Origin: Roseinatronobacter domitianus
GTDB taxonomy: Bacteria > Pseudomonadota > Alphaproteobacteria > Rhodobacterales > Rhodobacteraceae
Assembly (NCBI RefSeq): GCF_023336755.1
Contig: NZ_JALZWP010000008.1
Coordinates: 1 to 64,000, forward strand
Direction of reading: 5' to 3'
Length of the DNA: 64,000 bases
Shown: positions 31,560 to 49,945 of the stretch, piece after piece
How the letters are laid out: every line of letters begins with the position of its first letter
Numbering within the stretch: the first letter of the stretch is position 1
The notes under the pieces: model-generated
What the model was told of the DNA's origin: nothing
Database searches by the model: none
The model's input: only the letters and a program-made list of their open reading frames with translations
Translations under genes and position numbers: made by a program

Positions 31560-31567
31560 GGCCTGCC

Positions 31568-31789
31568 TCACGCCTTGATGCGGGCAACGACCGTGCCTTC
31601 GGTGACAATATCACCCTCTGCGACCAATATCTCGATCAGTTCCCCATCTTCCGGGCTGGCAACCGGAATTTCCATTTTCATAGACTCCAGGATCAGGATT
31701 TCCTCATCCTCGGCAAGTTTGTCACCGGGCTGGGCGACAATCTTCCACACGTTTCCGGTTATATCTGTTTTCACATCGACGATTGCCAC
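31568..31789 (-). CDS. Stand-alone biotin carboxyl carrier protein
   Basis: This 73-residue protein is a bare biotinyl domain: VKTDITGNVWKIVAQPGDKL, then ILESMKMEIPV with the biotin-acceptor Lys38 in the Met-Lys-Met motif, and EGDIVTEGTVVARI. It lacks the Ala/Pro-rich N-terminal extension of fatty-acid AccB, as in carriers of catabolic carboxylases or decarboxylases. It is the first gene of the BCCP-carboxylase-BioY operon, and its promoter region carries the 22-bp motif at 31846-31867. Confidence 0.92.
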   Translation of the reverse strand: MAIVDVKTDITGNVWKIVAQPGDKLAEDEEILILESMKMEIPVASPEDGELIEILVAEGDIVTEGTVVARIKA

Positions 31790-31845
31790 AGCGGGATCTC
31801 CTCTTGCCGATACATGCTCGCTGGGGACACCTTAAACACGTCATT

Positions 31846-31867
31846 TAGTAGTTGCAATAACAACTCC
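31846..31867. promoter_or_regulatory. Shared 22-bp motif, copy 1 (candidate TrmB-family operator)
   Basis: The motif starts TAGTAGTTGC and ends AACTCC after a 6-base AT-rich centre. It includes the inverted repeat AGTTG/CAACT (31850-31854 and 31861-31865). It lies between the carrier gene start (31789, leftward) and the regulator start (31992, rightward). Sixteen of 22 positions match the second copy at 37899-37920. A common regulator is inferred. Confidence 0.6.
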
Positions 31868-31991
31868 TTTTATTTTTGCTTTAAAGCGATCATTCGATAT
31901 AGTGAAGCAGCGGCCATGGTTGGCCTCGGTTTAAAAATTATTGTTGTGCATTGAGGGGCGCTGGCCCCGCTGACCTACCAAGGAGGCGAGA

Positions 31992-32867
31992 GTGTCTGCG
32001 AAACTTTCCGGCAAGGTCAGTGAACTGCCCGCGGAAACCTTGGCCAGCCTGAAGCGGCTTGGGTTCAGTGATTATGAAAGCCGTATCTATATTGACCTGC
32101 TGCGTCAGGTTTCGCCCCGCACTGCTTATGAGGTGGCGAAATCTACCGGGGTGCCGCGGCCCAATACCTATAACACGCTTGAGAGCCTGTCGCAGCGCGG
32201 TGCGGTGTTGGCCGTCACAGAGGGGCCAAGCCGTTATGTGGCTGCCCCGCCCCGCGACCTGTTTTCCAGCATCGCCGAAAAAACCGCCGCCCTGTGCAGC
32301 GATATCGGCACGCAACTGGAAGAAATTGCCAAACCGGTGGATGATCAGCATGTCTGGACCTTGTCGGGCGAAATAGAAGTTCATCGCAAGATCGACACCC
32401 TGATCCGTAATTGCCGGGACTCTCTGATGCTGAAGGCGGCATCCGATATCCTGCAAATGCACAAACCCGTTCTGGCAGAGGCCGGCGCGCGGGGCGTGGA
32501 AATGCTGATTATCGTGTTCGGTCCCGACCCAGAGGAATTTACCTTCGGGCCACGCTGCCGCACCTATATTCACGAAGCCAATGGCGTCAGGATGGGCAGC
32601 GCCGACAACCTGTTCACGCTGACCGTGGATCACCACGAAATGGTGACAGCGAAAGTCTCCGACACGCCTGTTGCGGTTCATACCAGCAACACCACGATCG
32701 TTAACCTTGCGGAATCGCTGGTGCGGCATGACTATTACATGGCCGAGATATTTCAGAAATTCGCGCCGGACATTGATGCTACCTACGGGCCTTACCTACG
32801 CGATCTGCGGCTTGGCTGTTTTACCCCGGAACAGGCAGCCAGTTTCCGGACCAAGACGGGCCAGTAA
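31992..32867 (+). CDS. TrmB family transcriptional regulator
   Basis: The 291-residue protein starts at GTG 31992, with AGGAGG five bases upstream. Residues 15-85 are the TrmB winged helix (LKRLGFSDYESRIYIDLLRQ, TAYEVAKSTGVPRPNTYNTL). The rest is the ligand-binding TrmB C-terminal domain of PLD-like fold. TrmB regulators are best known for sugar control in archaea but also occur in bacteria. The gene is divergent from the biotin-carrier operon and convergent with the CoA ligase gene, in the centre of the carboxylase cluster, so it is the natural controller of both motif-bearing promoters. Confidence 0.87.
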   Translation: MSAKLSGKVSELPAETLASLKRLGFSDYESRIYIDLLRQVSPRTAYEVAKSTGVPRPNTYNTLESLSQRGAVLAVTEGPSRYVAAPPRDLFSSIAEKTAALCSDIGTQLEEIAKPVDDQHVWTLSGEIEVHRKIDTLIRNCRDSLMLKAASDILQMHKPVLAEAGARGVEMLIIVFGPDPEEFTFGPRCRTYIHEANGVRMGSADNLFTLTVDHHEMVTAKVSDTPVAVHTSNTTIVNLAESLVRHDYYMAEIFQKFAPDIDATYGPYLRDLRLGCFTPEQAASFRTKTGQ

Positions 32868-32900
32868 CGGGCTGGCGAACGCCCATGACGCATAGGGGAA

Positions 32901-32929
32901 AACGGCGCAAGGGTGTGGCTCGCGCCGTT
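32901..32929. terminator. Hairpin between convergent TrmB and CoA-ligase genes
   Basis: AACGGCGC (32901-32908) and GCGCCGTT (32922-32929) are perfect 8-bp arms with a 13-base loop in the 93-base space between the two converging stops. There is no T-run. A weak bidirectional terminator is likely. Confidence 0.45.
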
Positions 32930-32960
32930 GCTCGGTGGTCCGGGGCTGGCTGTGCCTTGC

Positions 32961-35150
32961 TTATGCCAGCCTGCGCGCCAACTGCCGTTCCAGATGCCCG
33001 ATATGCGCCAGAGCCTGCGCCATTGCCGGGATTTCATCATAGATCGGCACGCCTATGTCAAAGGCACGCATGCGATAGTCCCGCCGTGTCTGGTCCAGTT
33101 CGGCGGACCCGTCGGTCCGCATGGCCAAAGCGAAATGCGCGACGCCGGGCCATTTCTCGCGGGTTTGGCGCACCACCTCGAACAGATTTCCGATCGGGTC
33201 GACAGTGCCCCTGCCCACGAAAGCCGCAAGGTTCAGGTGCATGGCAATGGCGTCGGGTTCCGCATGTTCGAACACATGGCCCAGAATTTCACCCGCGATC
33301 CAGCCTTCCTTTTCTTGCAAGGTTTTGACCGGCGTATCTATAGGGTTTATCACGCTGGTGCCCGGCGGCAGGCCCATGGCATCCAGCGCGGCACGGGCCT
33401 TGCCCTTGAAGGGGGCAACCTTCAGCTTGTACAAAGAGAAGATATCCGCCCCCAGCACGCTGGAGCCGCCGCCATTGCCGAACAGCGTGACCGCATGGGT
33501 GGGCTTTTCCGGCCGCAAGGTGAAATGCTGAAGCGCCAGCAGCGCATCAATGAACTCATCCACCGTAGTGGCCATGCTAAGGGGGAATTGCTGCGCCAGC
33601 GCATCCCATGCCTTGTCATCGCCCGCCAAGGCCCCGGTATGCGACGCAGCGGCCAGCCGCCCGTCATCCGAACGCCCGCCTTTCAACACCACGACGGGCT
33701 TGGGCGTAGGATGATTGCGCAGCACCTCGACAAAGGATTTTCCGTCGCGGATATCCTCTATATACAGGCCAACCGCACGGGTTTCGGGATCGCTGAAATA
33801 GTAATCCAGCAAGTCATGCGGTTTCACATCGGCGCTGTTGCCAATTGTCACCAGCCCGCTGAACCGCAAACCCCGCCATTGCCCACGCTTGATGATGTCG
33901 GTGCTCAGGCCCCCGGATTGTGAGATCACCCCGATAGAGCCCAGCGCCTTGGGCGCCCCGACAGGAAACGTCAGCCCGCCCCGTGGCGAATAAGTGCCCA
34001 GACAGTTGGGACCAAGAACGCGAATGCCCGACGCCCGCGCCCGGCGCACCAGATCATCTTGCAACTCGCGGCCTTCCTCGACCTCGCCAAAGCCCGAACT
34101 GATGACCTGCGCAATGCGCACCCGTCCTGCGCCCGCTTCCAGCGCGTCGGCTATGCGCCCTGCGCCAATGGCAATATAGGCATAATCCACCTCTTGCGGA
34201 GTGTCTGCCAAGGAAGGGTAGGCTTTCAGCCCCTCTATTTCATCGGCCTTGGGGTGAATTGGGTAGATGTCGCCCTCGAAGCCGAAATCCTTCAACCGTC
34301 TGATAAAGGTGTTCGCAATCGCAACATCGCGGGTTGACGCTCCCAAAACCGCAATCGTACGCGGCTGGAAAAGCGGGCGGAACATATCTGCCGCGCTCTG
34401 GCCCGTGGTGTAGGGCGCTACGTCTTGGGTTGACGCCGTGTTCAGCACGAAAGCCGCATCCACCGCAACCGCACCTTCTGGAGAAACGATGACGGGGTTC
34501 AGGTCCGCCTCTGAAATCTCGTCGGCATACTGCATCAGCAGACCATCCGGCCCGCCCAGCGCGATCATCGCGTCCACCAATGTGTCGACATCAACAGGGT
34601 CCTGTCCACGCGCGCCTTGCAACAGCCCATACCCTTTCAGCTCTTGCAGCATGTCATGAGCAGTTGGGCGGTCGATGGGGCAGATGCGAAACGCGACATC
34701 TTTCAACAGTTCCACGAAAATGCCGCCCAGACCCACCATCAGCATGGGGCCGAATTGCGGGTCCCGAAACCCACCCAGCACAACCTCTTGGCCCTTGGGG
34801 GCCATTTCCTCGACCAGCCAGCCGTCGCGCATGCAGTCCTTGATTATGGGCTTTTGCGCCATCTCGGTTATCGCGGCTGCAACGGCCTGCGCGTCGGGCA
34901 GGTTCAGGGCCACCCCCCCGGCATCGGATTTGTGCAATATCTGGCTGGACACCACCTTGACCACGAATGGCGCGCGCATGTCGCGCGCAGCCGCTACTGC
35001 GGCCGCCGCATCGGCGACAACGCAGGATTTGGGCGTGCGTATCCCGAAGGCAGATAACAGCGCCTTGCCTTCGGCTTCGTTCAGGGCTTTGCGCCCCGCT
35101 GCCTTTGCCTGACCGACAATTTCCGCAGGGTTCTGGACAAGTATGTTCAT
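32961..35150 (-). CDS. Acetate--CoA ligase (ADP-forming) family protein, beta-alpha fusion
   Basis: The 729-residue enzyme combines both halves of an NDP-forming acyl-CoA synthetase, making acyl-CoA from acid, CoA and ATP (or ATP in reverse). The ATP-grasp half comes first (residues 10-230: FVVKVVSSQILHKSDAGGVA, MVGLGGIFVELLKDV). It is followed by the CoA-binding Rossmann domain (RTIAVLGASTRDVAIANTF, VLGPNCLGTYSPRGGLTFPV) and the flavodoxin-like ligase domain with the phospho-histidine motif AASHTGALAGDD. Many family members carry the alpha half first. It ends the enolase-carboxyltransferase operon, 11 bases after its neighbour. The acid substrate is unknown. Confidence 0.9.
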   Translation of the reverse strand: MNILVQNPAEIVGQAKAAGRKALNEAEGKALLSAFGIRTPKSCVVADAAAAVAAARDMRAPFVVKVVSSQILHKSDAGGVALNLPDAQAVAAAITEMAQKPIIKDCMRDGWLVEEMAPKGQEVVLGGFRDPQFGPMLMVGLGGIFVELLKDVAFRICPIDRPTAHDMLQELKGYGLLQGARGQDPVDVDTLVDAMIALGGPDGLLMQYADEISEADLNPVIVSPEGAVAVDAAFVLNTASTQDVAPYTTGQSAADMFRPLFQPRTIAVLGASTRDVAIANTFIRRLKDFGFEGDIYPIHPKADEIEGLKAYPSLADTPQEVDYAYIAIGAGRIADALEAGAGRVRIAQVISSGFGEVEEGRELQDDLVRRARASGIRVLGPNCLGTYSPRGGLTFPVGAPKALGSIGVISQSGGLSTDIIKRGQWRGLRFSGLVTIGNSADVKPHDLLDYYFSDPETRAVGLYIEDIRDGKSFVEVLRNHPTPKPVVVLKGGRSDDGRLAAASHTGALAGDDKAWDALAQQFPLSMATTVDEFIDALLALQHFTLRPEKPTHAVTLFGNGGGSSVLGADIFSLYKLKVAPFKGKARAALDAMGLPPGTSVINPIDTPVKTLQEKEGWIAGEILGHVFEHAEPDAIAMHLNLAAFVGRGTVDPIGNLFEVVRQTREKWPGVAHFALAMRTDGSAELDQTRRDYRMRAFDIGVPIYDEIPAMAQALAHIGHLERQLARRLA

Positions 35151-35161
35151 GGCGCTTCCCC

Positions 35162-36697
35162 TTAGTAGCTTGTCGGCCAGCTGCGCATCAGGTGCTGTCC
35201 AAGCCCACCGGACAAGCGGCGTTGGTGAATTTCCAGCAGTCGGATGATGTAATCCCGCGTTTCCTGCGGCTTGATAACGTCATGCGCAGAGAAGATCTGC
35301 GCCATGTCCCACACCTCCAGGTCTTTCTGAATTTCGGCCAGCGCAGCTTCGAACCCGTCGTCACCGGCGGTCAGGTTATGCACGATGCTGGTCGCGAAAA
35401 CCGGGTCCATGAACGAAATCTCGGCATTGGGCCAAGCGATCATGCTGTCGTTATGCGCCCCGCCGCCCATGGCGACATAGGCGCGCCCATAGGCCTTGCG
35501 GCAGATGACTGTTACTTGTGGCACGGTCGTCAAGCAGGTCGCGTTCATGAAGTTCATGATATGCCCGGGTGCGCCCCGGCGCTCGGCATCGGTGCCAACG
35601 ACAAAGCCGGGCGTGTCCATGAACCGCACAATCGGAATGTTGAAACTGTCGCACATGACCGTGAAATCAATGATCTTGCGGCAGGCTTCGGCAGAGAGCG
35701 CGCCGCCCCCGGTCTGCGGGTTGTTGGCGACAATGCCGACCACATTGCCATTCAAACGCGCCAGCGCCACCACGGCAGATTTACCAAACCGTGGTTTTAT
35801 CTCAAAAATCGACCCGGTGTCGAAGATCACATCGAGGATCTTCTTCATGTTATAAACTTGGGTGCGCTTTTCCGGCATGATGTCCAGAATGCGTTCCTGA
35901 TCCGCGCCAGACCCTTCCGGGACCGCAGCAACAGGTGGCAACTCGCGGTTATGGCTTGGCATGTAGGACAGGAACTGGCGAATCATCGCCATCGCGTCCT
36001 CGTCAGTGTCCACGAATTGGTCAATCAGTCCGGTCTGTTCGGCATGCAGGCGCCAGCCGCCAAGCTCTTCCAGATCAACCTTCTCGCCAATGGCCATCGA
36101 CACCAGCCGGGGGCTGGAAACCGACATGATCGAGCCTTTCTTCATGACCGCGAAATCCGCGCAGCAGCACAGCCAGGCCGAAGACCCGAAAGAGGTGTCC
36201 AGCGCCGCCGCAGCCCATGGTGTGTCGCGCAAGCGGCGGAACTGAGTCGTGTCATTGCCCAGCATGGTGCCCATCCCCTTGGACCCCATCGCATCTGGCA
36301 GGCGCGCCCCGGTAGATTCGCCGATATGGACAAAAGGCATCCCGCGTTCCGTGCAGATCTTGCGAATATAGCCCATCTTCTTGCTGTTGATCGCCCCGGT
36401 AGATGCGCCCTTGGTCGTGAAATCATTAATCACAACGCCAACATCACGCCCGTCTATGCGGCCAAAGCCGGTTATCTTGCCGTCGCGCGGGGTCTTTGCG
36501 GCTTCCTTGGCCGAAAAGCTGGAGCGACCCAGAAGGCCGGTTTCAAAAAAGCTGTCCTTGTCGACCAACGCATCCAGACGTTCCTGTGCGTTCAGCTTGC
36601 CCTGCTCGCGGCGTCGGGCCAGCTTGTCCGGGCCGCCCATGGCTTTGGCTTGTGCCCGCATGTGGTCAAGTTTCGAGAGCATGTCTTCATGCGCCAT
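35162..36697 (-). CDS. Acyl-CoA carboxylase, carboxyltransferase (beta) subunit
   Basis: I start at ATG 36697 (MAHEDMLSKL), preceded by GGAAGGAAACC, which gives 511 residues. Both crotonase-fold halves are present: GKLNAQERLDALVDKDSFFE, HIGESTGARLPDAMGSKG, then VGIVANNPQTGGGALSAEAC and RFMDTPGFVVGTDAERRGAP, with the oxyanion-hole region GRAYVAMGGG. Relatives transfer carboxyl groups between biotin and propionyl-, methylcrotonyl-, glutaconyl- or methylmalonyl-CoA. Together with the separate carrier and carboxylase genes, and with the CoA ligase next door, it should carboxylate or decarboxylate a CoA thioester made in this pathway. Confidence 0.9.
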   Translation of the reverse strand: MAHEDMLSKLDHMRAQAKAMGGPDKLARRREQGKLNAQERLDALVDKDSFFETGLLGRSSFSAKEAAKTPRDGKITGFGRIDGRDVGVVINDFTTKGASTGAINSKKMGYIRKICTERGMPFVHIGESTGARLPDAMGSKGMGTMLGNDTTQFRRLRDTPWAAAALDTSFGSSAWLCCCADFAVMKKGSIMSVSSPRLVSMAIGEKVDLEELGGWRLHAEQTGLIDQFVDTDEDAMAMIRQFLSYMPSHNRELPPVAAVPEGSGADQERILDIMPEKRTQVYNMKKILDVIFDTGSIFEIKPRFGKSAVVALARLNGNVVGIVANNPQTGGGALSAEACRKIIDFTVMCDSFNIPIVRFMDTPGFVVGTDAERRGAPGHIMNFMNATCLTTVPQVTVICRKAYGRAYVAMGGGAHNDSMIAWPNAEISFMDPVFATSIVHNLTAGDDGFEAALAEIQKDLEVWDMAQIFSAHDVIKPQETRDYIIRLLEIHQRRLSGGLGQHLMRSWPTSY

Positions 36698-36716
36698 CTG
36701 GTTTCCTTCCGATAGG

Positions 36717-37790
36717 TTATCTGAATGTGACCGACTTTGCGGTGAGCCGTTCAACTGTGGCGAGGTCCAGCTTGGGCGAGTACCCGGCAGGCAAAGTGAT
36801 CGTCCCTTGCGCAAACGGCAGTGGGTTTTCGAACAGGCGGGAATGGGGTTTCAGGAACCCGTTGAATTCCCCGGCATTGTCCAGTGTGTGGCGGGCAACG
36901 CAGGCTTCCAGCCAAGCGTGGGTTTCGCTGCCCAGCCCATCGCCCAAGACCGGCTGCATGCCATGCGCACGCACCGCGTCCATCCCCGCGCGCAGGCGGT
37001 CCAGACCACCAAAGCGCTTCAGCTTCAGCTTGCAATATCCAACGCCCGGCATGTCACCTGCGCGGGTGATATCGTCCAGCGTGCAGATCGGCTCGTCCAG
37101 CATCAGCGGCACCGGAGAGACAGCGGCAACAGCGCCATTTGCTTCCCACTCATCCGCTTCGCAGGGTTGTTCGAACAGTTCTATGCCTTCCGGGTTCAGC
37201 CCCTGCGCGAATGCCAAAGCCTGCGCCCGCGAATAGGCACGATTCGCGTCCAGCCGCAGCGTGGCCTTACCTGCCGTCGCGCGCTGAATGACCGCCACCC
37301 GTGCCAGATCGGCGTCTACATCCTTGCCAACCTTAACCTTGAACGTCTTGAAACCCTCGGCAATGGCCTGTTCAAGTTCCTGTTCAATGTCGCGTGCTTC
37401 CAGACTGTTGACCGGTGTCAGCAACGGGTGCACAGAATCATGGTCCAGAACCAGCATCGGATGCTTTCGCAACACTTCCAGCGCCGTGACAAAACTGGTC
37501 GTTGCGACCTTGCTCTGCTCGAAGTCGCCAAGCAGATCGGCCATTACATCGTCTATATCGCGTCCGATGGCAGCCTGTGCATGGCGCAGCAGAAATGCCC
37601 AGCCACCGTCGCGCGTCTCCAAGCTGGAACCGGGCGAAATATGCGCGTCGGCAAAACCCGACCGCCCGGAATCGTCCTGAACTTCGACCATGAAAGGCTC
37701 GAAAGTTGTGAAAGTCCGGTAAGATAGCCGATATGGACGGATGAGTGGCAAGGCCAGTTTCCGCAGAACAATACTGGTGATGGCTGGCAA
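36717..37790 (-). CDS. Enolase-superfamily enzyme, muconate-lactonising (MLE) subgroup
   Basis: The barrel shows the MLE-subgroup residues: KxK in FKVKVGKD on strand 2, metal ligands in RLDANRAY, ELFEQP and MLDEPICTLDD, and the second KxK in YCKLKLKRFGG. MLE-subgroup enzymes perform cycloisomerisation, racemisation/epimerisation or dehydration through an enolate. I choose a TTG start at 37790, since AAGGGGAG lies 7 bases upstream; the in-frame ATGs at 37808 and 37895 have no such site. The product is 357 residues. It is the first gene of the operon with the carboxyltransferase and CoA ligase, divergent from TctC. Confidence 0.83.
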   Translation of the reverse strand: MPAITSIVLRKLALPLIRPYRLSYRTFTTFEPFMVEVQDDSGRSGFADAHISPGSSLETRDGGWAFLLRHAQAAIGRDIDDVMADLLGDFEQSKVATTSFVTALEVLRKHPMLVLDHDSVHPLLTPVNSLEARDIEQELEQAIAEGFKTFKVKVGKDVDADLARVAVIQRATAGKATLRLDANRAYSRAQALAFAQGLNPEGIELFEQPCEADEWEANGAVAAVSPVPLMLDEPICTLDDITRAGDMPGVGYCKLKLKRFGGLDRLRAGMDAVRAHGMQPVLGDGLGSETHAWLEACVARHTLDNAGEFNGFLKPHSRLFENPLPFAQGTITLPAGYSPKLDLATVERLTAKSVTFR

Positions 37791-37898
37791 CTTGTCTCTC
37801 CCCTTCATGATCTGTTGCGCGGCCATTCGGACCAGCGCCATCCCGCGCCCAGGCGCTGTCGGACCCATCCAAAATTGCACCTGCGCCACTTGCAAAAA

Positions 37899-37920
37899 TA
37901 GTAGTTGCTTATGCTACTCC
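37899..37920. promoter_or_regulatory. Shared 22-bp motif, copy 2 (candidate TrmB-family operator)
   Basis: The motif starts TAGTAGTTGC and ends TACTCC, with inverted arms AGTAG/CTACT (37900-37904 and 37914-37918). It lies in the divergent region between the enolase-superfamily operon (start 37790) and tctC (start 38005), so one site could control both catabolism and uptake. Sixteen of 22 bases agree with copy 1 at 31846-31867. Confidence 0.6.
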
Positions 37921-38004
37921 GTTTTCCTAGTCTTTGCATGCGAAGTTCACGTTTGCAAGCCTGTTTGCAATCAGCGCGGCTTCGAAAAACGGGAGGAGTT
38001 AATT

Positions 38005-38970
38005 ATGAACTGTAAGAAACTGGTAGGTGCCGTGCTTGGCTCTACGCTGCTGATTTCTGCTAGTGCGACGGCTCAAGACTGGCCCAATGGCGACCTGCGC
38101 TTTATTCTACATGTCAGTCCGGGTGGGGCTACCGACGTTCTTGCGCGCCGCCTTGCAGATGGCATGCAACAGATCACGGGCACCAATGTGGTTGTCGAAA
38201 ACCAACCCGGTGGCAGCGGCGCGCGTCAGCTTGCCCTGATGAGCCTGATCGAACCCGATGGCCAGACCATCGGGTCTGTGACAGCGTCGCATCTGGGGAT
38301 GTTGCAGCAAAGCGAAGAATTCGACCTGTCCTCGATCGAATGGTCCTGCGGCATGGTGCTGGACCCTTATCTGCTGGCAGTGCGTGCTGACAGCGACATC
38401 CAGTCGCTGGAAGACATGGTCGCCAAGGCCAAGGCAAACCCCGGCGGGCTGACCATTGGCGGGTTTGGTGAAGCATCGGGCGGCCATGTCGCGTGGGCCA
38501 TGTTCGAGGAAGCATCCGGCATTGTCGGGGACATGAACTGGGTGCCCTATGACAGCGTTGGCGATGCCGTCGTGTCCGCTCTTGGTGGCCATAGCGATGT
38601 GGCAATCGCCTATGTCGGGCTGGTCAAGCAATATGTGGAATCGGGCGACATGCGGGTGATCGGCATTCAGTCCGACACGCGCTCGGAATCGTTGCCGGAT
38701 ACGCCCACCTATGCCGAAGCGGGTTTCGATGTTGACACCACATGGCAGCAATTCCGCGGCGTGATCGCCCCGGCTGGCACCTCTATGGAGCATCAGCAAG
38801 CATTGTGCGACGTGGTCGAACAGACCATGCAAAGCGATGAACTGATGCAATATGTCCGGGATTCCGAATTGACCTACGGGTTCATGGGCCCAGAGCCGTT
38901 CAAAGCCTTTGTTGAAGCACAGAACGAGGCGGCGATCTATTGGGGTGAGCGCCTCGAGTCGATCCAATGA
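38005..38970 (+). CDS. tctC: Tripartite tricarboxylate transporter (TTT), substrate-binding protein TctC
   Basis: A GGGAGGAG lies just upstream of the ATG. The 321-residue protein has a signal peptide (MNCKKLVGAVLGSTLLISAS, cleaved near ATAQD) and the TctC fold markers DLRFILHVSPGGATDVLARR and VVVENQPGGSGARQLALMSL. The carboxylate-pinching loops near QPGGSG and GEASGG are present. TctC-type proteins bind citrate, tricarballylate, terephthalate or related acids in the periplasm and hand them to TctAB. It is the first gene of the rightward run and shares its control region with the enolase/carboxyltransferase operon. Confidence 0.93.
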   Translation: MNCKKLVGAVLGSTLLISASATAQDWPNGDLRFILHVSPGGATDVLARRLADGMQQITGTNVVVENQPGGSGARQLALMSLIEPDGQTIGSVTASHLGMLQQSEEFDLSSIEWSCGMVLDPYLLAVRADSDIQSLEDMVAKAKANPGGLTIGGFGEASGGHVAWAMFEEASGIVGDMNWVPYDSVGDAVVSALGGHSDVAIAYVGLVKQYVESGDMRVIGIQSDTRSESLPDTPTYAEAGFDVDTTWQQFRGVIAPAGTSMEHQQALCDVVEQTMQSDELMQYVRDSELTYGFMGPEPFKAFVEAQNEAAIYWGERLESIQ

Positions 38971-38995
38971 TCCGCGCTCATACCGGAGAAGCCCA

Positions 38996-39496
38996 GTGAC
39001 CAAAGATCACAACGGCAAGGAGTCAGCGGCACCTGCCGCTGGCTTCCTGCGTGCCAGCCTGAATGTGCCCACCGCGCTTGCCGATATCGCCGTCTGTCTT
39101 GCGCTGGGTGCGCTGGGCCTTTGGTTCGTGGTAAACGCCGCAGGCATGCCAGCGGGCCGCACCATGATCGGCATCGGCACCTTTCCCATGATCGTGGGCG
39201 TCATACTGGTCGCCCTGTGCCTCGTGCAAATCGGCCTGTCCCTGCGTAATTTCCGCAACGCTGGTACGATCAGCTTCCACCGCCCTTTGGCGGTGCCCAT
39301 CGGCATGGGGCTTATGCTGCTGTTCCCCTTTGCCATGGACAGCTTCGGGTATTTCCAGACTGCCGCGCTGTGGGTGCCTGCTTTTGCGTGGGTGGCGGGT
39401 GTCGCAGAGCTGCCAACCATCCTCACCCTGACTGCGGTCATATTGGGGCTGGCCTACTTTCTGTTCCAGATGCTGCTGGGAACGCCACTTCCCTGA
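38996..39496 (+). CDS. tctB: TTT transporter small membrane subunit TctB
   Basis: The start is GTG 38996, with GGAGAA upstream, giving 166 residues and four hydrophobic spans (ADIAVCLALGALGLWFVVNA, GIGTFPMIVGVILVALCLVQ and two in the C-terminal half). The GTFPMIVGVIL block is typical of TctB. It has no catalytic role of its own and forms the membrane complex with TctA. Confidence 0.9.
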   Translation: MTKDHNGKESAAPAAGFLRASLNVPTALADIAVCLALGALGLWFVVNAAGMPAGRTMIGIGTFPMIVGVILVALCLVQIGLSLRNFRNAGTISFHRPLAVPIGMGLMLLFPFAMDSFGYFQTAALWVPAFAWVAGVAELPTILTLTAVILGLAYFLFQMLLGTPLP

Positions 39497-39603
39497 AGCC
39501 GGCCCGCGCACCCTGTCGCTGCCACGCGCCTCAGGGGCCTGCACTATGCCCGCTATGAGCAAAAACACCATGCGCTGTCATGCGCCCGCCACAAGAGGCC
39601 AAG

Positions 39604-41076
39604 ATGCTAGAGAATTTCACCAACGCCTTCGAACTTGTTTTCGCAGTGCGGGTCCTTGTTGCACTGATGATCGGGGTCTTGGTCGGATATTGCGTGGGGG
39701 CCATGCCGGGGCTGACATCCTCTATCGGCATGGCGCTGCTGATCCCCTTCACCTTCGAACTGGATGCGATTTCTGCGATTGTCATGCTTGTGGCAATCTA
39801 TATGGCGGCGGATTACGCAGCGGGCATTCCCGCGATTCTGGTCAACGCCCCCGGACAACCCGCCGCCGCAGTCAGCGCCTTCGATGGCTATCCCATGACA
39901 CTGCGCGGCGAGGCAGGAAAAGCGTTGAACCTGTCCATCATGTCCTCTGCCACAGGGGCATTCATAAGCCTGATCCTGCTTGTCATTACCGCACAGGCGA
40001 TGGCGCGGGCCGCGCTGGCCTTCGGTCCGGCGGAGTATTTCGCCTTGGCTGTTCTTGGGCTAAGCCTGATCGCGGTGTTGAGCACCGGCTCAACCTTGAA
40101 GGCCCTGATCGGGCTGTTGTTCGGGCTGGTCATTGTCACGGTCGGCATAGACCCGATACGCGGCTCTTTGCGTTTCGTGGTCACACCCATGCTGATAGAT
40201 GGCATCCCGTTTCTACCCGCGCTGATCGGCCTTTTCGCGCTGTCGGAAGTGTTCATCATGCTGGAGCGTGGCAATGAACGCTCACGCACCGAGCTGGGCG
40301 TCATGCGCGCCAAGCCATCACTGTCCGCCTTGTGGCCGTTTCGGCGCACGGTGTTGCGGTCGTCCTTCATTGGCTATGCCGTCGGAGTTATTCCCGGCGC
40401 CGGTGCGGCAATCGCATCGCTTGTCAGTTATGGGTTTGCCAAGCGCGCTTCCAAACCGGCGGATCGCGACAGCTACGGCAAAGGCAACCCCGACGGCGTG
40501 GTCGCGTCCGAGGTGGCCAATAACGCCGCCGTTTCCGGCGCGCTGGCCCCGCTGCTGGCGCTGGGGGTTCCCGGTTCCGCAAGTGCGGCGGTGCTGATCG
40601 GGGGGCTGACGATCCAGGGCTTGCAGCCCGGTCCCATGCTGTTTGTCAACAACCCGCAGATTCCGTATTCGATCTTCGTGTCCTTGCTGGTCGGCTTGCC
40701 GATCATGACCGCAATCGGGTTGCTTGGGGTGCCACTATGGGTCCGGCTGACCCGCATTCCCCCCGGTGCCATCGCAACGCTTGTGGCCTGCATCTGCGTA
40801 TTGGGGGCGTTTGCCTCTTCCAACAACTCTTTCGAGGTGCTTGTAACCGTGGTCTTCGGGATTATCGGATACTTCCTGCGCAAGGTCGATATTCATCCGG
40901 CCCCGATCGTGCTGGCGCTGGTGCTGGGCTACATGATGGAATCCAACCTGCGGCGCGCCATGATTATCGGCAATGACAACCTGCTGTTCCTGGTGTCGCG
41001 TCCGATTGCGATTGTGCTTCTGCTGGGGGCGGTCCTTGTTATCGCGTCACCGCTTCTGGGCCGACTTCGGCGCTAG
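39604..41076 (+). CDS. tctA: TTT transporter large membrane subunit TctA
   Basis: The ATG at 39604 follows AGAGG. The 490-residue protein has about 12 membrane spans and the two TctA signature regions: GAMPGLTSSIGMALLIPFTF near residue 32, and VGVIPGAGAAIASLVSYGFA near 260, followed by EVANNAAVSGALAPLLALGV and PGSASAAVLIGGL. It forms the translocation channel for the acid bound by TctC, driven by an ion gradient. Confidence 0.94.
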   Translation: MLENFTNAFELVFAVRVLVALMIGVLVGYCVGAMPGLTSSIGMALLIPFTFELDAISAIVMLVAIYMAADYAAGIPAILVNAPGQPAAAVSAFDGYPMTLRGEAGKALNLSIMSSATGAFISLILLVITAQAMARAALAFGPAEYFALAVLGLSLIAVLSTGSTLKALIGLLFGLVIVTVGIDPIRGSLRFVVTPMLIDGIPFLPALIGLFALSEVFIMLERGNERSRTELGVMRAKPSLSALWPFRRTVLRSSFIGYAVGVIPGAGAAIASLVSYGFAKRASKPADRDSYGKGNPDGVVASEVANNAAVSGALAPLLALGVPGSASAAVLIGGLTIQGLQPGPMLFVNNPQIPYSIFVSLLVGLPIMTAIGLLGVPLWVRLTRIPPGAIATLVACICVLGAFASSNNSFEVLVTVVFGIIGYFLRKVDIHPAPIVLALVLGYMMESNLRRAMIIGNDNLLFLVSRPIAIVLLLGAVLVIASPLLGRLRR

Positions 41077-41175
41077 ACTGGTGGCGCGCGCAACCGCGCT
41101 CCCACCCCAACCCGTCTGTCGCTTTGTCGCCGCCACCCCCGCCCCATGCGCCCTGCCGGGCCAGTCTGGACACTT

Positions 41176-42219
41176 ATGCCAATGCAAATGAAAATCCGGT
41201 TTTGCCTTACGGCGCTGCTTGCCGGCGGCGGTGGTTGGCTGGCGCAGCAGGCGAATATACCGTTGGCCTGGCTGATCGGGTCGCTATTGGTGACAATGCT
41301 GCTGGGACTACGCTTTCCGATCACGGTGCCGCGCAAGCTGTATCGCAGCGGGCAGATCATTGTGGGGACAGCGGTTGGCCTAAGCGTTCCGCCAGAGGTG
41401 GTTGACCGTATCGGACCGCATGTGCCGACAATCCTTGCAGGCGCGCTTATCTCGATCGCGGTGGGGCGGCTGTTGGCCCCTGTTGTGGCGCGGGCGGGCA
41501 AGCTGGACCTGCGCACGGCGTTTTTCGCAATGGTCCCTGCCGGGATCTCGGAAATGGCCGATCTAGCCGCCCGTCATGGCGCAGATGCGGGCGCAGTTGC
41601 GCTGTTTCACACGTTGCGGGTTTGCTTCATTGTGCTGTTGCTGCCGACGCTGATTGTCTCGCTTAGCCCTACAACTCTGGACCTGCATTCCACCGATGGC
41701 AGTTGGGATCGCTACTTGCTGATCGCGCTGCTGACCGGGCTGGCTGCGGCCTATGCCGGCAACCGCTTGGGCCTGCCATCTGCTTTCGTGGTCGCGCCCA
41801 TGATTGCTTTGGCGCTGCTATCGGCCAGCGGCGTTCTGGCCGCACGCGAACCCGCTATTCTGCTGGCTGTGGCACAAATCGCGCTCGGCCTAAGTTTGGG
41901 CGCACGGTTCCGCGCCGATACCTTGAAACGGCTTCCGCGCGCGCTGGCAGGGGGAATTCCGATCATCCTGCTGCATGGCGCGCTGATGCTGGGGCTGGCG
42001 GTGCTGGCGGCAGAGATGACCGGGCTGGCGCTGCCGGAACTACTGATGGGCTTTGCAACCGGCGGGACCGCCGAGATGGTGCTGACCGCGCAAATCGTGG
42101 CTGCCGATGCGGCCCTTGTGGCCGCCTATCAGGTCACGCGCGGGTTGCTGGGCAACCTGCTTGCCGGACCGCTTTACCGCTGGACAATCCTGCCCCGCCT
42201 TCCAAAAAACAAAGGATGA
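41176..42219 (+). CDS. AbrB family membrane protein (PF05145 type)
   Basis: About ten hydrophobic spans and the repeats PLAWLIGSLLVTMLLGLRFP and LPSAFVVAPMIALALLSASG identify this family, often mislabelled ammonia monooxygenase; its substrate is unknown. The motif PAGISEMADLAARHGADAGA is typical. Several in-frame starts are possible (41146, 41176, 41182) with no clear ribosome-binding site; I use 41176. The next gene starts 4 bases after its stop. AbrB genes frequently accompany TctABC systems, as here. Confidence 0.82.
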   Translation: MPMQMKIRFCLTALLAGGGGWLAQQANIPLAWLIGSLLVTMLLGLRFPITVPRKLYRSGQIIVGTAVGLSVPPEVVDRIGPHVPTILAGALISIAVGRLLAPVVARAGKLDLRTAFFAMVPAGISEMADLAARHGADAGAVALFHTLRVCFIVLLLPTLIVSLSPTTLDLHSTDGSWDRYLLIALLTGLAAAYAGNRLGLPSAFVVAPMIALALLSASGVLAAREPAILLAVAQIALGLSLGARFRADTLKRLPRALAGGIPIILLHGALMLGLAVLAAEMTGLALPELLMGFATGGTAEMVLTAQIVAADAALVAAYQVTRGLLGNLLAGPLYRWTILPRLPKNKG

Positions 42220-42223
42220 CATC

Positions 42224-43252
42224 GTGAACTATGCCCGCCCGGCATTTGGGGACCATGCGCGCCATGCACAAGGCCGTATTCGCACGCTCGCGCCGGGTGT
42301 GTGCATAGCCTTCGTGATTGCGATGGCGGCGACCTTTCTGGGCAATCATTATGGCGCGCCGGTCATGCTGTTTGCGCTGCTGATCGGGCTGGCGCTGCAT
42401 TTCCTGTCACAGACAGAGCCATGCGCGGCTGGCATAGAATTTTGCGCAAAATCGCTGCTGCGCGTGGGCATAGCCCTGCTTGGTGCCCGAATTACGTTTG
42501 ACCAGCTTGCGGCGCTTGGGGCAGGGCCGCTGATATTGGTGCTGATCTGCATTCTGGCAACCATCGGTTTTGGCCTGCTTGCCGCGCGGTTACTGGGGCG
42601 CGGTTGGCGGCTGGGCATCCTGACCGGCGGGGCTGTGGCCATCTGCGGGGCATCCGCTGCGCTGGCCATTTCAGCGGTGTTGCCGCGTCATAGCAATCTG
42701 GAACGCGATACACTGTTCACGGTGATCGCAGTCACCACATTGTCGACGATTGCAATGGTCGCCTACCCAATCTTGTTTTCCAAGCTGGGGCTAAGTGACC
42801 AACAAATCGGGGTTTTGCTGGGCGCGAGCATTCATGATGTGGCGCAGGTTGTGGGCGCGGGCTATGCCGTTTCCGAAGAGGCGGGCGATACCGCCAGCTA
42901 TGTCAAGCTGCTGCGCGTCGCGATGCTGCCCATTGTCGTGATCGTGCTGGGAGTGGTTCTGCGCGCCAAGGGAAGCGAACGCCAAGGCGCGGTTCCGGTG
43001 CCCCTGTTTACGCTGGGCTTTGCCGGGCTGGTGATCGTCAACAGCTTTGGCCTGGTTCCCGAACCAGCCCGCCTGCTGATGGTTGATAGTTCGCGCTGGC
43101 TGCTGGTTGCTGCCATTGCCGCGCTGGGGGTGAAGACCTCTATGTCCGCGATGTTCCGTCTTGGGCCGCGCCACAGCATTCTGGTCGTCGCGCAGACAGG
43201 TTTTCTGGCCGCGCTGGCAGTCGCGCTGCTGTTTCTTTTGCAAGTGTCATGA
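42224..43252 (+). CDS. YeiH/PSE family putative sulfate exporter-type membrane protein
   Basis: The start is GTG 42224 with AAGGA seven bases upstream; 342 residues follow. About ten spans include the family blocks FCAKSLLRVGIALLGARITF, GGAVAICGASAALAISAVLP and GASIHDVAQVVGAGYAVSEE. The UPF0324/PSE family has been proposed to export sulfate or sulfite, but members occur beside other catabolic genes, and here no sulfur enzyme is adjacent. The role in this operon is open. Confidence 0.83.
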   Translation: MNYARPAFGDHARHAQGRIRTLAPGVCIAFVIAMAATFLGNHYGAPVMLFALLIGLALHFLSQTEPCAAGIEFCAKSLLRVGIALLGARITFDQLAALGAGPLILVLICILATIGFGLLAARLLGRGWRLGILTGGAVAICGASAALAISAVLPRHSNLERDTLFTVIAVTTLSTIAMVAYPILFSKLGLSDQQIGVLLGASIHDVAQVVGAGYAVSEEAGDTASYVKLLRVAMLPIVVIVLGVVLRAKGSERQGAVPVPLFTLGFAGLVIVNSFGLVPEPARLLMVDSSRWLLVAAIAALGVKTSMSAMFRLGPRHSILVVAQTGFLAALAVALLFLLQVS

Positions 43253-43271
43253 CAACCCGACAGGAGGTCCG

Positions 43272-45938
43272 ATGACAGACCCAATTCACCCCGCCAACCC
43301 CGATCTGGTTGCCCCGCTGCCCGGTGCCCCGGAACCGATGAGCTATCTTAGCCTGACGGCGGCAGAGGATGCAGGGTTCGGGGCCATCTCTCGGCTGCCG
43401 CGCACGCTGAAGGTGATGGCCGAAGATATCCTGTTTCGCCTGCCGGCCCCCAAGGCGCACGCACAGATCAGCGCCCTGATTGCGCGGGTGCAATCGCAGC
43501 CTGTCTCCTTCGCGCCCGGTCGCGCCCTGTTGCAGGATTTCATGGGCATTCCTTTGATGACCGACATGGCCTCTATGCGCGATGCGTTGGCCGCCCAAGG
43601 CCATGACCCAATGTTGCTGGACCCGGCCATCCCGGTAGATTTCGTTGTCGACCATTCGCTGAACGTGTTGTTCGCGGGCAATCCCGATGCCTATGCGCGC
43701 AACCAAAAGGCCGAATTTGAACGCAACGCCGAGCGGTTTGCCTTTATCAAGTGGTGCCAGCAAAGCTTCAGCAAGTTTCGCGTCATTCCGCCGGGGCGCG
43801 GGATCATGCATCAGGTGAATCTGGAATGGCTAAGCCATGTCGTAACCCTGAACCCCGACACGCAACTGGCGCGCCCCGATACCATGATCGGGACCGACAG
43901 CCATACCACCATGGTCAATGCCTTGGGCGTGCTGGGCTGGGGCGTTGGCGGCATAGAGGCCGAAACGGCTATGCTGGGAACACCGCTGGAAATGGGTGCG
44001 CCCCGCGTTGTGGGCATTCGACTGACCGGCGTCAGACCCTCAGGAACAACCGCCACAGACCTTGTGCTGCATGTGGCGGAAAAGCTGCGCGCCGTGGGCG
44101 TGGTCGGCGCCTTTCTGGAATTTCACGGCGCGGGTGTAGGGCAATTGCCGCTGGCAGACCGCGCAACCATTGCAAACATGGCCCCCGAATATGGCGCGAC
44201 TTGCGCGTGGTTCCCGATTGATGCGCTGACGCTGGACTATCTGAGCATGACCGGGCGCAGCGCGCAGCATCTGGCCCGCGTTCAGGCCTATGCGCAAGCG
44301 CAGGGCCTGTGGCAAGACCCGGACACGGCGGACACGACCGACCTGAATTTTGACGAAGAGCATGTTTTCGATCTGTCCGAAGTTGTGCCAAGCATGGCCG
44401 GGCCGACCCGCCCTGACCAGCGCGTTAACCTTCGCGATGTGCCTGCCAGCTTTGATGCAAGGCTGAAAGAAGTTGCACCCGGTGCCACCGCCACCGACAG
44501 CGCTGCGCTGGATCATGGTGCTGTGGTCATCGCCGCGATCACCAGTTGCACCAACACCTCTAACCCAGAGGTGATGATTGCCGCAGGGCTGCTGGCACGC
44601 AAGGCTCGCGCGGCGGGGCTGTTGCCGCGCCCATGGGTGAAAACCTCGCTGACACCCGGCTCGCGCGTGGTGACGGATTACCTGACCGATGCGGGGCTGA
44701 TGGCGGATCTGGAGGCGCTGGGCTTTCACAATGTCGGCTATGGATGTGCCACCTGCAACGGCAATTCCGGCCCGCTTGCGCCAGAGATTCAGGCAGCGAT
44801 CGACCGCGACGCCCTGTGCACGGTCGCTGTGTTGTCGGGCAATCGCAACTTTGAGGGGCGCATTCATCCGCAGATCAAGGGCGCGTATCTGGCATCGCCA
44901 CCGTTGGTGATCGCGGCGGCACTGGCTGGAACTGTGACACGCGATCTGGCATCCGCCCCGCTTGGCCTGGACCCGGACGGCAAACCGGTTTTCCTGGCCG
45001 ATATCTGGCCCGACGCGGCGGAAATATCGGCTTTGGTCGCGCAATATGTGACCGCCGACAGGTTCCGCAAATGCTATGCATCCGGCATGGAAACAACCGA
45101 CGCGTGGGATGCGCTGGATGCGCCCCAAGGCGTGCAGTTTCCGTGGGATAATGCCAGCAACTTCATTCGCCCCTCACCCTTTGCGGCCATGAAAGCGGGG
45201 GCAGACAGCGCGCTGGCCCCAGATGGACGGATTGAGGGCATTCGTCCGCTACTGATGCTGGGCGATGCGATCACGACCGATCACATCTCTCCCAATGGGG
45301 CCATTCGTGCAGACAGCCCGGCAGGGCAATATCTGCAAGCGCAGGGCACCGATCCTGCGCGGCTGGGCAATTTCGGCACCCGGCGCGGCAACCCGGAAAT
45401 TTGCCTGCGCGGCATGTTCGACAACCCCTTGCTGAATAACGAATTGGTCGCGGGCATGCGCGGCAATCATGCGCGCCATGCCCCATCCGGGCAGGTTATG
45501 ACCGTGCATGAAGTGTGCGATCTCTACCGTCAGACAGGCACGCCGCTGATTATCATTGCCGGGCGTAATTATGGGCAAGGGTCTTCGCGCGACTGGGCGG
45601 CCAAGGGGCTGGCCCTGATGGGGGTGCGCGCGGTTCTGGCCGAGAGCTTTGAGCGCATTCACCGCACCAACCTTGTGGGCATGGGTATTCTGCCCCTGAC
45701 TTTCCCCGATGGGGTGACGCGCCATGACCTGAACGTGACCGATGATACCGAATTTGCGCTGGAATTGCCGCATGCGGGGCTAGAGGCGCGCTGCAACGTG
45801 ATCTTGCAGCAGCACGGGCCGGGCAGCAGCCCGCGCCAATTTGTCCTGACCGCGCAAATCGCGTCCGAGAGCGAGGCGCAAATTCTGTCACGCAGCGGGC
45901 TGTTGCCGCATATGATGGCCAAACTCGCCTCTGTATGA
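43272..45938 (+). CDS. acnA: Aconitate hydratase (AcnA-type)
   Basis: The ATG at 43272 follows AGGAGG. The 888-residue enzyme has all four aconitase domains: SRLPRTLKVMAEDILFRL, the substrate motif IGTDSHTTMVNALGVLGWGV, the [4Fe-4S] cysteines in ITSCTNTSNP and GCATCNGNSGP, and the C-terminal swivel domain with RNYGQGSSRDWAAKGLAL. It isomerises citrate, cis-aconitate and isocitrate, or a close analogue. Its place in a transporter operon, rather than a lone housekeeping locus, suggests a pathway-specific paralogue working on a tricarboxylic intermediate. Residues such as RNYGQG where EYGTG is more usual may mark altered specificity. Confidence 0.92.
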   Translation: MTDPIHPANPDLVAPLPGAPEPMSYLSLTAAEDAGFGAISRLPRTLKVMAEDILFRLPAPKAHAQISALIARVQSQPVSFAPGRALLQDFMGIPLMTDMASMRDALAAQGHDPMLLDPAIPVDFVVDHSLNVLFAGNPDAYARNQKAEFERNAERFAFIKWCQQSFSKFRVIPPGRGIMHQVNLEWLSHVVTLNPDTQLARPDTMIGTDSHTTMVNALGVLGWGVGGIEAETAMLGTPLEMGAPRVVGIRLTGVRPSGTTATDLVLHVAEKLRAVGVVGAFLEFHGAGVGQLPLADRATIANMAPEYGATCAWFPIDALTLDYLSMTGRSAQHLARVQAYAQAQGLWQDPDTADTTDLNFDEEHVFDLSEVVPSMAGPTRPDQRVNLRDVPASFDARLKEVAPGATATDSAALDHGAVVIAAITSCTNTSNPEVMIAAGLLARKARAAGLLPRPWVKTSLTPGSRVVTDYLTDAGLMADLEALGFHNVGYGCATCNGNSGPLAPEIQAAIDRDALCTVAVLSGNRNFEGRIHPQIKGAYLASPPLVIAAALAGTVTRDLASAPLGLDPDGKPVFLADIWPDAAEISALVAQYVTADRFRKCYASGMETTDAWDALDAPQGVQFPWDNASNFIRPSPFAAMKAGADSALAPDGRIEGIRPLLMLGDAITTDHISPNGAIRADSPAGQYLQAQGTDPARLGNFGTRRGNPEICLRGMFDNPLLNNELVAGMRGNHARHAPSGQVMTVHEVCDLYRQTGTPLIIIAGRNYGQGSSRDWAAKGLALMGVRAVLAESFERIHRTNLVGMGILPLTFPDGVTRHDLNVTDDTEFALELPHAGLEARCNVILQQHGPGSSPRQFVLTAQIASESEAQILSRSGLLPHMMAKLASV

Positions 45939-45987
45939 ACAATCCGGCCCATAGACGCATCTTGAAAGCAGTAGAAGGAGACGACGA

Positions 45988-46983
45988 ATGAGCTTGCCCG
46001 AAACCATGCAGGTGATCGAGATCACGCGCCCCGGCGGGCCAGAGGTGTTGAAACCCGCCACACGCCCCGTGCCAACCCCGGCCGCAGATGAGGTGCTGAT
46101 AAAGCTGTCCCATGCCGGGGTGAACCGGCCCGATGCATTACAGCGCGCGGGCGCCTATGACCCGCCCAAGGGAGCGTCTGACCTGCCCGGTCTGGAAGGG
46201 TCTGGCACAGTGGTTGCCGTTGGCGCACATGTAACACGCTGGAAACCCGGCGACCGCGTCTGCGCCCTGTTCCCCGGTGGCAGCTATGCCGAATATGCCA
46301 CCACGCATCACGGGCAGGTGTTGCCGGTTCCTGGCACAATGTCCTTGCGCGACGCCGCTGGCCTGCCAGAGACGTTCTTTACTGTCTGGTCGAACGTGTT
46401 CATGCGTGGCGCTCTGAAAACGGGCGAGACGTTCCTTATTCACGGCGGTTCCTCGGGCATTGGGACAACCGCCATTCAACTAGCGCGGCTGTTTGGTGCA
46501 TCGGTCTTTGCCACCGCTGGTTCCGCTGAAAAATGCGCCGCCTGTGAAAAGCTTGGCGCGACGCGCGCAATCAACTACCGCGAAGAGGATTTCGTGAAAG
46601 TCGTCAGCGAAGCGGGCGGAGCGGATGTTATCCTCGACATGGTGGGAGGCGACTACATCAAACGAAACCTGCGCGCATTGGCGGAGGATGGACGATTGGT
46701 CCAGATCGCCTTTCTGACGGGTCCCAAAGCCGAAATCAATTTCGCGCCGCTGATGATGCGCAGGCTTACGATTACCGGGTCAACCTTGCGACCGCAATCA
46801 GATCAGGCCAAGCACGACATTGCGCAGCAACTGGAACAGTGCGTCTGGCCGGCGCTTGCAGAGGGCCAGATCGCCCCGGTCATGGATCGCGTCTTTGCGT
46901 TGCAGGATGCGTCGGATGCGCATGAATTGATGGAAAGCTCTGCGCATATTGGCAAGATATTGCTGGAAATCACCGCGCAATAA
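45988..46983 (+). CDS. NAD(P)H-quinone oxidoreductase (zeta-crystallin type)
   Basis: This 331-residue medium-chain reductase/dehydrogenase lacks structural zinc cysteines and shows the quinone-reductase motifs NRPDALQRAGAYDPPKGASD, GLEGSGTVVAVG and the NADPH loop IHGGSSGIGTTAIQLARLFG. AGGAG precedes the ATG. It is the last gene of the rightward run that starts at tctC, and a strong hairpin follows 9 bases after its stop. It may reduce an enone or quinone formed in the pathway; the real substrate is unknown. Confidence 0.9.
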   Translation: MSLPETMQVIEITRPGGPEVLKPATRPVPTPAADEVLIKLSHAGVNRPDALQRAGAYDPPKGASDLPGLEGSGTVVAVGAHVTRWKPGDRVCALFPGGSYAEYATTHHGQVLPVPGTMSLRDAAGLPETFFTVWSNVFMRGALKTGETFLIHGGSSGIGTTAIQLARLFGASVFATAGSAEKCAACEKLGATRAINYREEDFVKVVSEAGGADVILDMVGGDYIKRNLRALAEDGRLVQIAFLTGPKAEINFAPLMMRRLTITGSTLRPQSDQAKHDIAQQLEQCVWPALAEGQIAPVMDRVFALQDASDAHELMESSAHIGKILLEITAQ

Positions 46984-47735: not shown

Positions 47736-47771
47736 GGGACCACATTATGCGTCTTCTGATCTGCTCGACAA

Positions 47772-47784
47772 GTGAAATATTCAC
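47772..47784. promoter_or_regulatory. Candidate TetR operator and promoter region
   Basis: GTGAA and TTCAC arms with a 3-base spacer lie midway between the divergent starts, and a further GGTGAACA half-site follows near 47807. A TTGACA-like -35 box is seen at 47799-47804. Operator assignment rests on position and symmetry. Confidence 0.45.
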
Positions 47785-47851
47785 CTGTGTTCTTTTTATT
47801 GACATTGGTGAACATTTTGGATGAGTTTCGCAAAAACCTGCGGAGTGAGCC

Positions 47852-49888: not shown

Positions 49889-49945
49889 TTGGGGCCGCCG
49901 CAACCGTGCCCAGATTTGCAAAGGCCACGGCGGGGTGTGCGGCTC

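Follow-up and report, generated by a model that had tools for sequence, protein, structure and literature searches.

The window, a stretch of 64,000 nucleotides from Roseinatronobacter domitianus, encodes three operons grouped around a gene for a TrmB-family regulator. Two of the operons lie on the minus strand (MLE-CT-ACD and BCCP-BC-BioY), and the third, TctC-TctB-TctA-AbrB-YeiH-Acn-QOR, occupies positions 38005 to 46983 of the plus strand. The features of the locus, with the evidence used to assign them, are as follows.

28176..29342, minus strand: metK (S-adenosylmethionine synthetase; Pfam), neighbor of the BioY gene, membership uncertain
29596..30177, minus strand: BioY biotin transporter component (PF02632)
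30198..31571, minus strand: stand-alone biotin carboxylase (BC) with three domains (PF00289, PF02786, PF02785)
31568..31789, minus strand: biotin carboxyl carrier (BCCP) of 73 amino acids with an ESMKME motif (PF00364, Biotin_lipoyl)
31846..31865, plus strand: candidate operator TAGTAGTTGCAATAACAACT in the gap between BCCP and trmB (pattern search)
31992..32867, plus strand: TrmB-family regulator (PF01978)
32961..35150, minus strand: ADP-forming acyl-CoA ligase (ACD), ATP-grasp first (Pfam, NCBIfam)
35162..36697, minus strand: carboxyltransferase (CT), a divergent acyl-CoA carboxylase beta subunit (PF01039)
36717..37790, minus strand: enolase-superfamily enzyme of the MLE subgroup (PF13378; structural model, PDB matches, invariant residues)
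37899..37918, plus strand: candidate operator TAGTAGTTGCTTATGCTACT in the gap between MLE and tctC (pattern search)
38005..38970, plus strand: TctC solute receptor (PF03401)
38996..39496, plus strand: TctB, start uncertain (PF07331)
39580..41076, plus strand: TctA permease (PF01970)
41146..42219, plus strand: AbrB-duplication membrane protein (PF05145, TIGR03082)
42224..43252, plus strand: YeiH-family membrane protein, possible sulfite exporter (PF03601)
43272..45938, plus strand: AcnA-family aconitase paralogue (Pfam, NCBIfam, comparison with other AcnA sequences)
45988..46983, plus strand: PIG3-type quinone oxidoreductase (QOR), accessory, shared by few relatives (TIGR02824)

Every gene listed by the first-pass annotation is present, and Pfam and NCBIfam searches of the window proteins recovered all of the families that it named. 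It had passed over the AbrB-duplication and YeiH proteins of the plus-strand operon, and it also missed the operator, the sulfite theme around YeiH, the hydratase and lyase of relatives, and the MetK paralogues found inside some clusters. The interval that it assigned to the system, 31568 to 46983, holds most of the genes and leaves those for BC and BioY outside. The minus-strand operons are tightly spaced, with an overlap of 4 bp between BCCP and BC and gaps of about 19 bp between MLE and CT and about 11 bp between CT and ACD. As read from the sequence, the likely starts are ATG at 36697 for CT, TTG at 37790 for MLE, ATG at 38005 for TctC, and GTG at 42224 for YeiH. The ACD ligase is 729 amino acids long and consists of an ATP-grasp_5 domain (residues 14 to 235) followed by CoA_binding_2 and Succ_CoA_lig domains (Pfam). 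TctC, TctB, and TctA, all identified by Pfam, stand together as a tripartite tricarboxylate transporter (TTT). No tRNA genes, and no Rfam families at the gathering threshold, were found in the whole window. Positions 47070 to 50662, 3' of the cluster, encode a TetR-type regulator, a FadH/OYE-type oxidoreductase, and a protein resembling EutA and arylmalonate decarboxylase (below the EutA cutoff), all apparently unrelated to the cluster.

The BioY gene adjoins metK. We considered whether the window MetK might be a cluster-specific enzyme and rejected this idea, since it is the only MetK match in its genome. MetK paralogues lie inside the cluster in four relatives (L070:17742-18908, L133:4126-5265, L034:1468-2685, and L057, where the gene is beside TctA). 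In L070, the paralogue gene and the MLE gene share 4 bp, and in L133 the paralogue gene abuts the hydratase gene. These paralogues look canonical where the alignment was read, and near them we recognized no SAM-using enzyme in the four relatives.

A search of 394 genomes from the family found 12 with a CT match at an E value of ≤1e-100; in four, the best match was 75 to 100% identical, and in eight, it was 44 to 54% identical. No match came from the only other genome of the same genus within this sample. A scan of GTDB species returned 41 loci, mostly from alpha- and betaproteobacteria, with two from gammaproteobacteria (L046 and L056). PLSDB yielded six records, one of which is a Sulfitobacter plasmid, predicted to be conjugative, with a closely similar copy (78.5%). 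Nothing useful came from L137 and L138. We scored gene presence in 42 loci using tblastn with score and coverage limits; many of the contigs were short, and one extra neighboring stretch was included for each of L017, L038, and L050. The loci are not independent (L021 and L022 are labeled as one species, and L033 and L048 lie within one genome), and two pairs of genomes that returned identical places, G199/G396 and G253/G405, seem to be duplicates.

The first-pass annotation had staked its reading on conservation of the gene neighborhood, and the neighborhood is conserved: MLE, CT, and ACD, which form the core, occur together in 33 of the 42 fetched relatives, among them the Sulfitobacter plasmid. 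Within these 33 core loci, BC and BCCP are retained in 30, TctC in 29, TrmB in 28, and BioY in 10. The quinone reductase and the aconitase, which had been counted as parts of the cluster, are present in the window and do not belong to the core. The reductase was found in 3 of the 42 relatives (a fourth gene lies beside L018, in L134), and the aconitase was found in 10 of the core loci. Nine loci lack the full core. In seven of these (L030, L041, L045, L046, L049, L052, and L053), the genome has an MLE relative elsewhere at 39 to 58% identity. For L030, this relative (in L171) is on a contig as long as the one that carries the CT, and so it probably lies about 12 kb from the CT. In L044, a short contig carries both MLE and CT; for L056, the genome yielded no match. 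In the vicinity of the outlying MLE relatives are TTT genes, SDR genes with a TauD-family dioxygenase (L170), a TauE gene (L169), a LeuC/LeuD-like pair (L171), and a PrpB-like lyase (L172).

The 11 stretches around lower CT matches (L058 to L068) are mostly arranged otherwise, with a second CT-family gene in 8 of the 11 and an ACD-like gene (36 to 48%) in 4 of the 11. CT relatives at 44 to 55% (L058 to L068, L071, and L072), which come from other Rhodobacteraceae and from Variovorax and Cupriavidus plasmids, have as neighbors another CT gene, CoA transferases, or more than one gene for TctC. One relative, L022, is from Paracoccus onubensis strain Merri. The Paracoccus strain Merri from Merri Creek is the subject of PMC12421959, and the sections of that paper that we consulted do not mention this gene set. 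The core recurs in many distantly related bacteria, and the gene set is probably mobile.

The upstream regions of the operons share the word TAGTAGTTGC, four bases, and then an inverted GCAACTACTA-like half, which together form a palindrome. With up to one mismatch, TAGTAGTTGC occurs exactly twice in the window, at 31846 in the BCCP-trmB gap and at 37899 in the MLE-tctC gap. For so short a word, 25 of 100 shuffles also gave two, so the evidence for an operator is where the sites lie and how well they are conserved. The 816 kb of loci contained 29 exact half-sites, whereas equal base frequencies would predict 1.6. Of these 29, 28 were no farther than 500 bp from a cluster gene start, in loci that are related and hence not independent. 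A longer pattern had three exact matches in the R. domitianus genome, the two in the window and one at C29:7733. A still longer pattern matched only the site at 31846, and the pattern with wrong spacing had no match in this genome. When two mismatches were allowed, the same genome gave 5 operator matches versus 52 (29 and 23) for the reversed control; with up to one mismatch, the genomes of 24 relatives gave 38 versus 95. Since the control is commoner than the operator, the number of loose matches means nothing, and only their placement is striking. By our reading, 33 of the 38 fall in the cluster or before an AbrB-Acn-TctC locus, and 5 fall elsewhere. In L032 and L035, an aconitase route is supplied by a locus of this AbrB-Acn-TctC kind, which carries an operator half-site of its own.

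The operator and a TrmB gene co-occur across loci. The two divergent gaps of the window hold the same operator, which also occupies matching positions in relatives. This agrees with the earlier proposal of a single TrmB regulon, and we infer that TrmB controls the operons through TAGTAGTTGC-N4-GCAACTACTA. The regulon is probably inducible. The third exact match, at C29:7733, is upstream of genes for a PuuE-like deacetylase and a member of the PrpD family, which both score below their NCBIfam cutoffs, and for a TRAP-TAXI transporter (L218:4414-8678); beside them, by our reading of the open reading frames, are a truncated PrpD-like gene and a gene resembling those for amidases. At L019:17129-18145, a close relative of fluoroacetate dehalogenase (E of about 1e-82) starts beside an operator copy.

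The BC, the carrier with its MKM motif, and the CT domain together make up a biotin-dependent acyl-CoA carboxylase in the wide sense. The first-pass reading depended on this enzyme being distinct from a housekeeping carboxylase. The genome encodes another carboxyltransferase that is 32% identical to the window CT (a third match spans only 82 residues), and near it, at G000:C1, is a long open reading frame containing a biotin carboxylase part, so we read these two genes as PccB and PccA. With this separate PccB/PccA-like pair, and with BC and carrier unfused in the window, we rejected the housekeeping propionyl-CoA carboxylase as an identity for the cluster enzyme. Like PccAB and MccAB, the enzyme combines the CT fold with a BC and a biotin carrier, and the best PDB matches of the CT are mostly propionyl-CoA carboxylase beta subunits. 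Unlike those systems, it has BC and carrier as separate genes, a CT with low identity to the PccB-like protein of the same genome, and two altered glycine motifs. Compared with that PccB-like protein, GGAR is replaced by TGAR and AYGGAYVVM by AYGRAYVAM, and the changed residues are also found in nine aligned relatives. These conserved glycine motifs have a role in acyl-CoA binding.

The biotin decarboxylases that are known work with a membrane beta subunit, which is their pump. That subunit (OAD_beta, PF03977) was found in 0 of 23 genomes or records, R. domitianus included, and a sodium-pumping biotin decarboxylase was therefore not supported. Because BC and BCCP are kept in nearly all core loci and OAD_beta is absent, the CT complex is likelier to carboxylate than to decarboxylate. 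The first-pass annotation had allowed for both directions; carboxylation is the one that these observations favor.

An AlphaFold model of the MLE enzyme (pLDDT of 94.8) matches muconate lactonizing enzymes, dipeptide epimerases, and N-acyl/N-succinyl amino acid racemases with TM scores of about 0.8 to 0.9. The MLE subgroup is marked by a KxK motif on strand 2, metal-binding D/E/D residues, and a lysine on strand 6. Across 20 sequences, K156, K158, D186, E212, K259, and K261 are invariant and D237 is nearly so, which places the protein in the MLE subgroup of the enolase superfamily. It resembles the branch of muconate lactonizing enzymes and N-succinyl amino acid racemases in its fold, KxK, D/E/D, and second lysine region, and differs from it in being only 18 to 24% identical to the 50 solved chains listed. 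Judging from the model, epimerization and beta-elimination are both possible chemistries.

The aconitase paralogue scores above the NCBIfam cutoff for AcnA (1008.6 versus 945 bits) and contains the signature motifs. A second AcnA-type aconitase, 48% identical, is encoded on contig C6 of the same genome. Ten cluster aconitases, from the window and nine loci, carry the signature motifs of 13 other AcnA-type sequences, a sharing that is partly by choice because the 13 were selected for holding two of the motifs (L031 fell below the 50% limit). At the 85% level, 18 positions separate the cluster aconitases from these 13. The paralogue probably remains a hydratase of the citrate family.

Other downstream enzymes appear in relatives, where 16 of the 33 core loci have a lyase and 15 have a hydratase. 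The two co-occur, since 13 of the 16 loci with a lyase also have a hydratase (Fisher P = 9e-5, without correction for kinship). For locus L070, the best PDB match of the hydratase is itaconyl-CoA hydratase (E of 2e-59), and that of the lyase is malyl/beta-methylmalyl-CoA lyase (E of 2e-43), with further matches to CLYBL (5vxc) and the beta chain of an acyl-CoA lyase (8khl). A plasmid search with the hydratase returned 196 records, which do not enter these counts. We rejected a strict either/or between aconitase and lyase exits, since three loci have both and their mutual exclusion was not significant (Fisher P = 0.26). Neither enzyme was found in the stretch covered for 10 of the 33 core loci, several of which are short contigs. 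In the window, the Pfam scan of proteins encoded at 28176 to 50662 detected neither hydratase nor lyase, and no recognized thioesterase lies in the window's own operons. The R. domitianus genome has one hydratase relative, distant from the cluster and 41% identical.

In the itaconate pathway, itaconyl-CoA is hydrated and cleaved directly, with no carboxylase. Clusters for this degradation (Ict/Ich/Ccl or RipABC) are like the relatives in which an Ich-like hydratase and a lyase of the CitE/Ccl/Mcl kind stand beside a CoA-activating enzyme. The window is unlike them, with an ADP-forming ligase, a complete biotin carboxylase, and an aconitase; the Pfam-scanned genes of the region include no CoA transferase. 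We did not classify the window as an itaconate degradation cluster because it is without the Ich-like hydratase and the Ccl/CitE-like lyase. The hydration and cleavage pathway is named in PMC12290011. Both exits, through aconitase and through hydratase and lyase, would suit a citrate-type or aconityl-type CoA ester, and it is mainly for this reason that we propose a tricarboxylate product.

A YeiH gene is near the core in 11 of 43 loci, namely, the window and 10 of the 42 relatives; none was found in the stretch covered for the remaining 32 relatives. Of the 42 genomes or records, 32 encode the family above its cutoff, most of them once; R. domitianus has two copies. Deletion of yeiH makes Salmonella sulfite sensitive, according to PMC12880088. 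In L038, YeiH adjoins a YeiE-like regulator, so that this YeiH may belong to an unrelated pair. A TauE-family gene is present in three betaproteobacterial loci (L037, L039, and L043); the family is common, with 2 to 12 copies in 41 of 42 genomes or records. Two loci, L027 and L028, run on into genes for a molybdopterin oxidoreductase and a 4Fe-4S protein, joined in L028 by a DmsC-like anchor, an arrangement that we take to resemble SoeABC. Most loci have no sulfite-linked genes in the stretch covered. Because YeiH, TauE-type, and SoeABC-like modules recur, the gene content suggests that sulfite is released during catabolism and, in turn, that the substrate may carry a sulfonate or other sulfur group.

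Gene clusters for sulfolactate, sulfoacetate, and taurine are of the dissimilatory sulfonate type. Like these, the locus places a member of a sulfite/sulfate exporter family beside an acid importer, and L027 and L028 have their SoeABC-like genes. Unlike these, the window encodes no recognized enzyme for cleaving carbon-sulfur bonds: among the scanned window proteins, there was no Pfam or NCBIfam match to Xsc, SuyAB, or a glycyl radical lyase, and no known C-S lyase was recognized. Sulfosuccinate, sulfoacetate, and 3-sulfopropionate were set aside as substrates since none fits every step on paper, and we found no named sulfonate with a carbon skeleton suited to all of the proposed steps. Solved structures similar to TctC offered no informative ligand. 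At L045:3-1904, beside CT and ACD, there are a TauD-family dioxygenase, truncated where the contig ends, and a protein that most resembles the beta subunit of sulfopyruvate decarboxylase (below the cutoff).

The first-pass interpretation is borne out in part. Gene content, the shared operator, conservation, and independence from the housekeeping enzymes can all be read directly from the DNA. From them we tentatively propose, as a reading that falls somewhat short of an even chance, that the locus is a horizontally spread, probably inducible regulon for the catabolism of a small polycarboxylic acid, which is imported and carboxylated as its CoA ester, with export of sulfite. We infer the following order of steps. 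TctCBA would import the acid. The MLE-subgroup enzyme would then take a proton next to a carboxylate, resulting in epimerization or in removal of a beta leaving group, and the ADP-forming ligase would make the CoA thioester. BC, carrier, and CT would spend ATP to add CO2, and BioY would contribute to the biotin supply. In clusters of the window type, a citrate-family CoA ester would next release CoA and be hydrated by the aconitase paralogue; in other clusters, an enzyme like itaconyl-CoA hydratase would hydrate the ester and a CitE/malyl-CoA-lyase-like enzyme would cleave it. Sulfite freed on the route would leave through YeiH.

A sulfur-free substrate deserves the most attention among the alternatives, although we think it unlikely. 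It would be a branched C5 acid (itaconate, mesaconate, citraconate, methylsuccinate, or a lactone) whose CoA ester is carboxylated to aconityl-CoA, with YeiH exporting another anion or hitchhiking. The itaconyl-CoA-hydratase-like and malyl/citramalyl-CoA-lyase-like partners in relatives speak for such an acid, as do the aconitases, the LeuC/LeuD-like proteins, and the members of the PrpD family encoded close to the core or to MLE relatives. However, direct hydration and cleavage of itaconyl-CoA would leave the carboxylase without a role, and the recurrence of three sorts of sulfite-linked modules also speaks against it. A related scheme, to which we give still less credence, reverses itaconate synthesis at the CoA level. 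A branched C5-dicarboxylyl-CoA of the itaconyl, mesaconyl, or citraconyl type would be carboxylated to aconityl-CoA. Hydrolysis would then give aconitate for the dedicated aconitase, or hydration would give citryl-CoA and cleavage acetyl-CoA plus oxaloacetate, and the C5 ester might itself arise after the MLE enzyme removes sulfite from a sulfonated precursor.

The TTT family can transport tricarboxylates and acyl-CoA carboxylases are reversible, so an imported tricarboxylate could in principle be activated and decarboxylated, with BC running backwards to yield ATP. With no OAD_beta in the genomes or records searched and BC and BCCP so widely retained, we regard this as improbable. Each gene family of the cluster is common on its own, and a transporter operon might have come to lie beside a copy of propionyl-CoA carboxylase by coincidence. 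Conservation across classes and on a plasmid already contradicts chance, and the operons have a common operator while the genome keeps a separate PccB/PccA-like pair; coincidence is thus very improbable.

We conclude that the locus is a real, jointly controlled catabolic regulon built from known families and undescribed within the literature searched. Among the papers listed from that literature, which left most subscription papers and preprints outside its scope, none was seen to describe this gene set, in line with the first-pass statement that no such pathway was known. If our proposed regulon is correct, a carboxylating route would join those known for organic acids, and a function could be assigned to a gene set that is widespread, in part carried on plasmids, and in what we have seen annotated only one gene at a time. 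The clear operator would help in finding the inducer. The regulon would also represent what is possibly a new bacterial way of breaking carbon-sulfur bonds in polycarboxylates.
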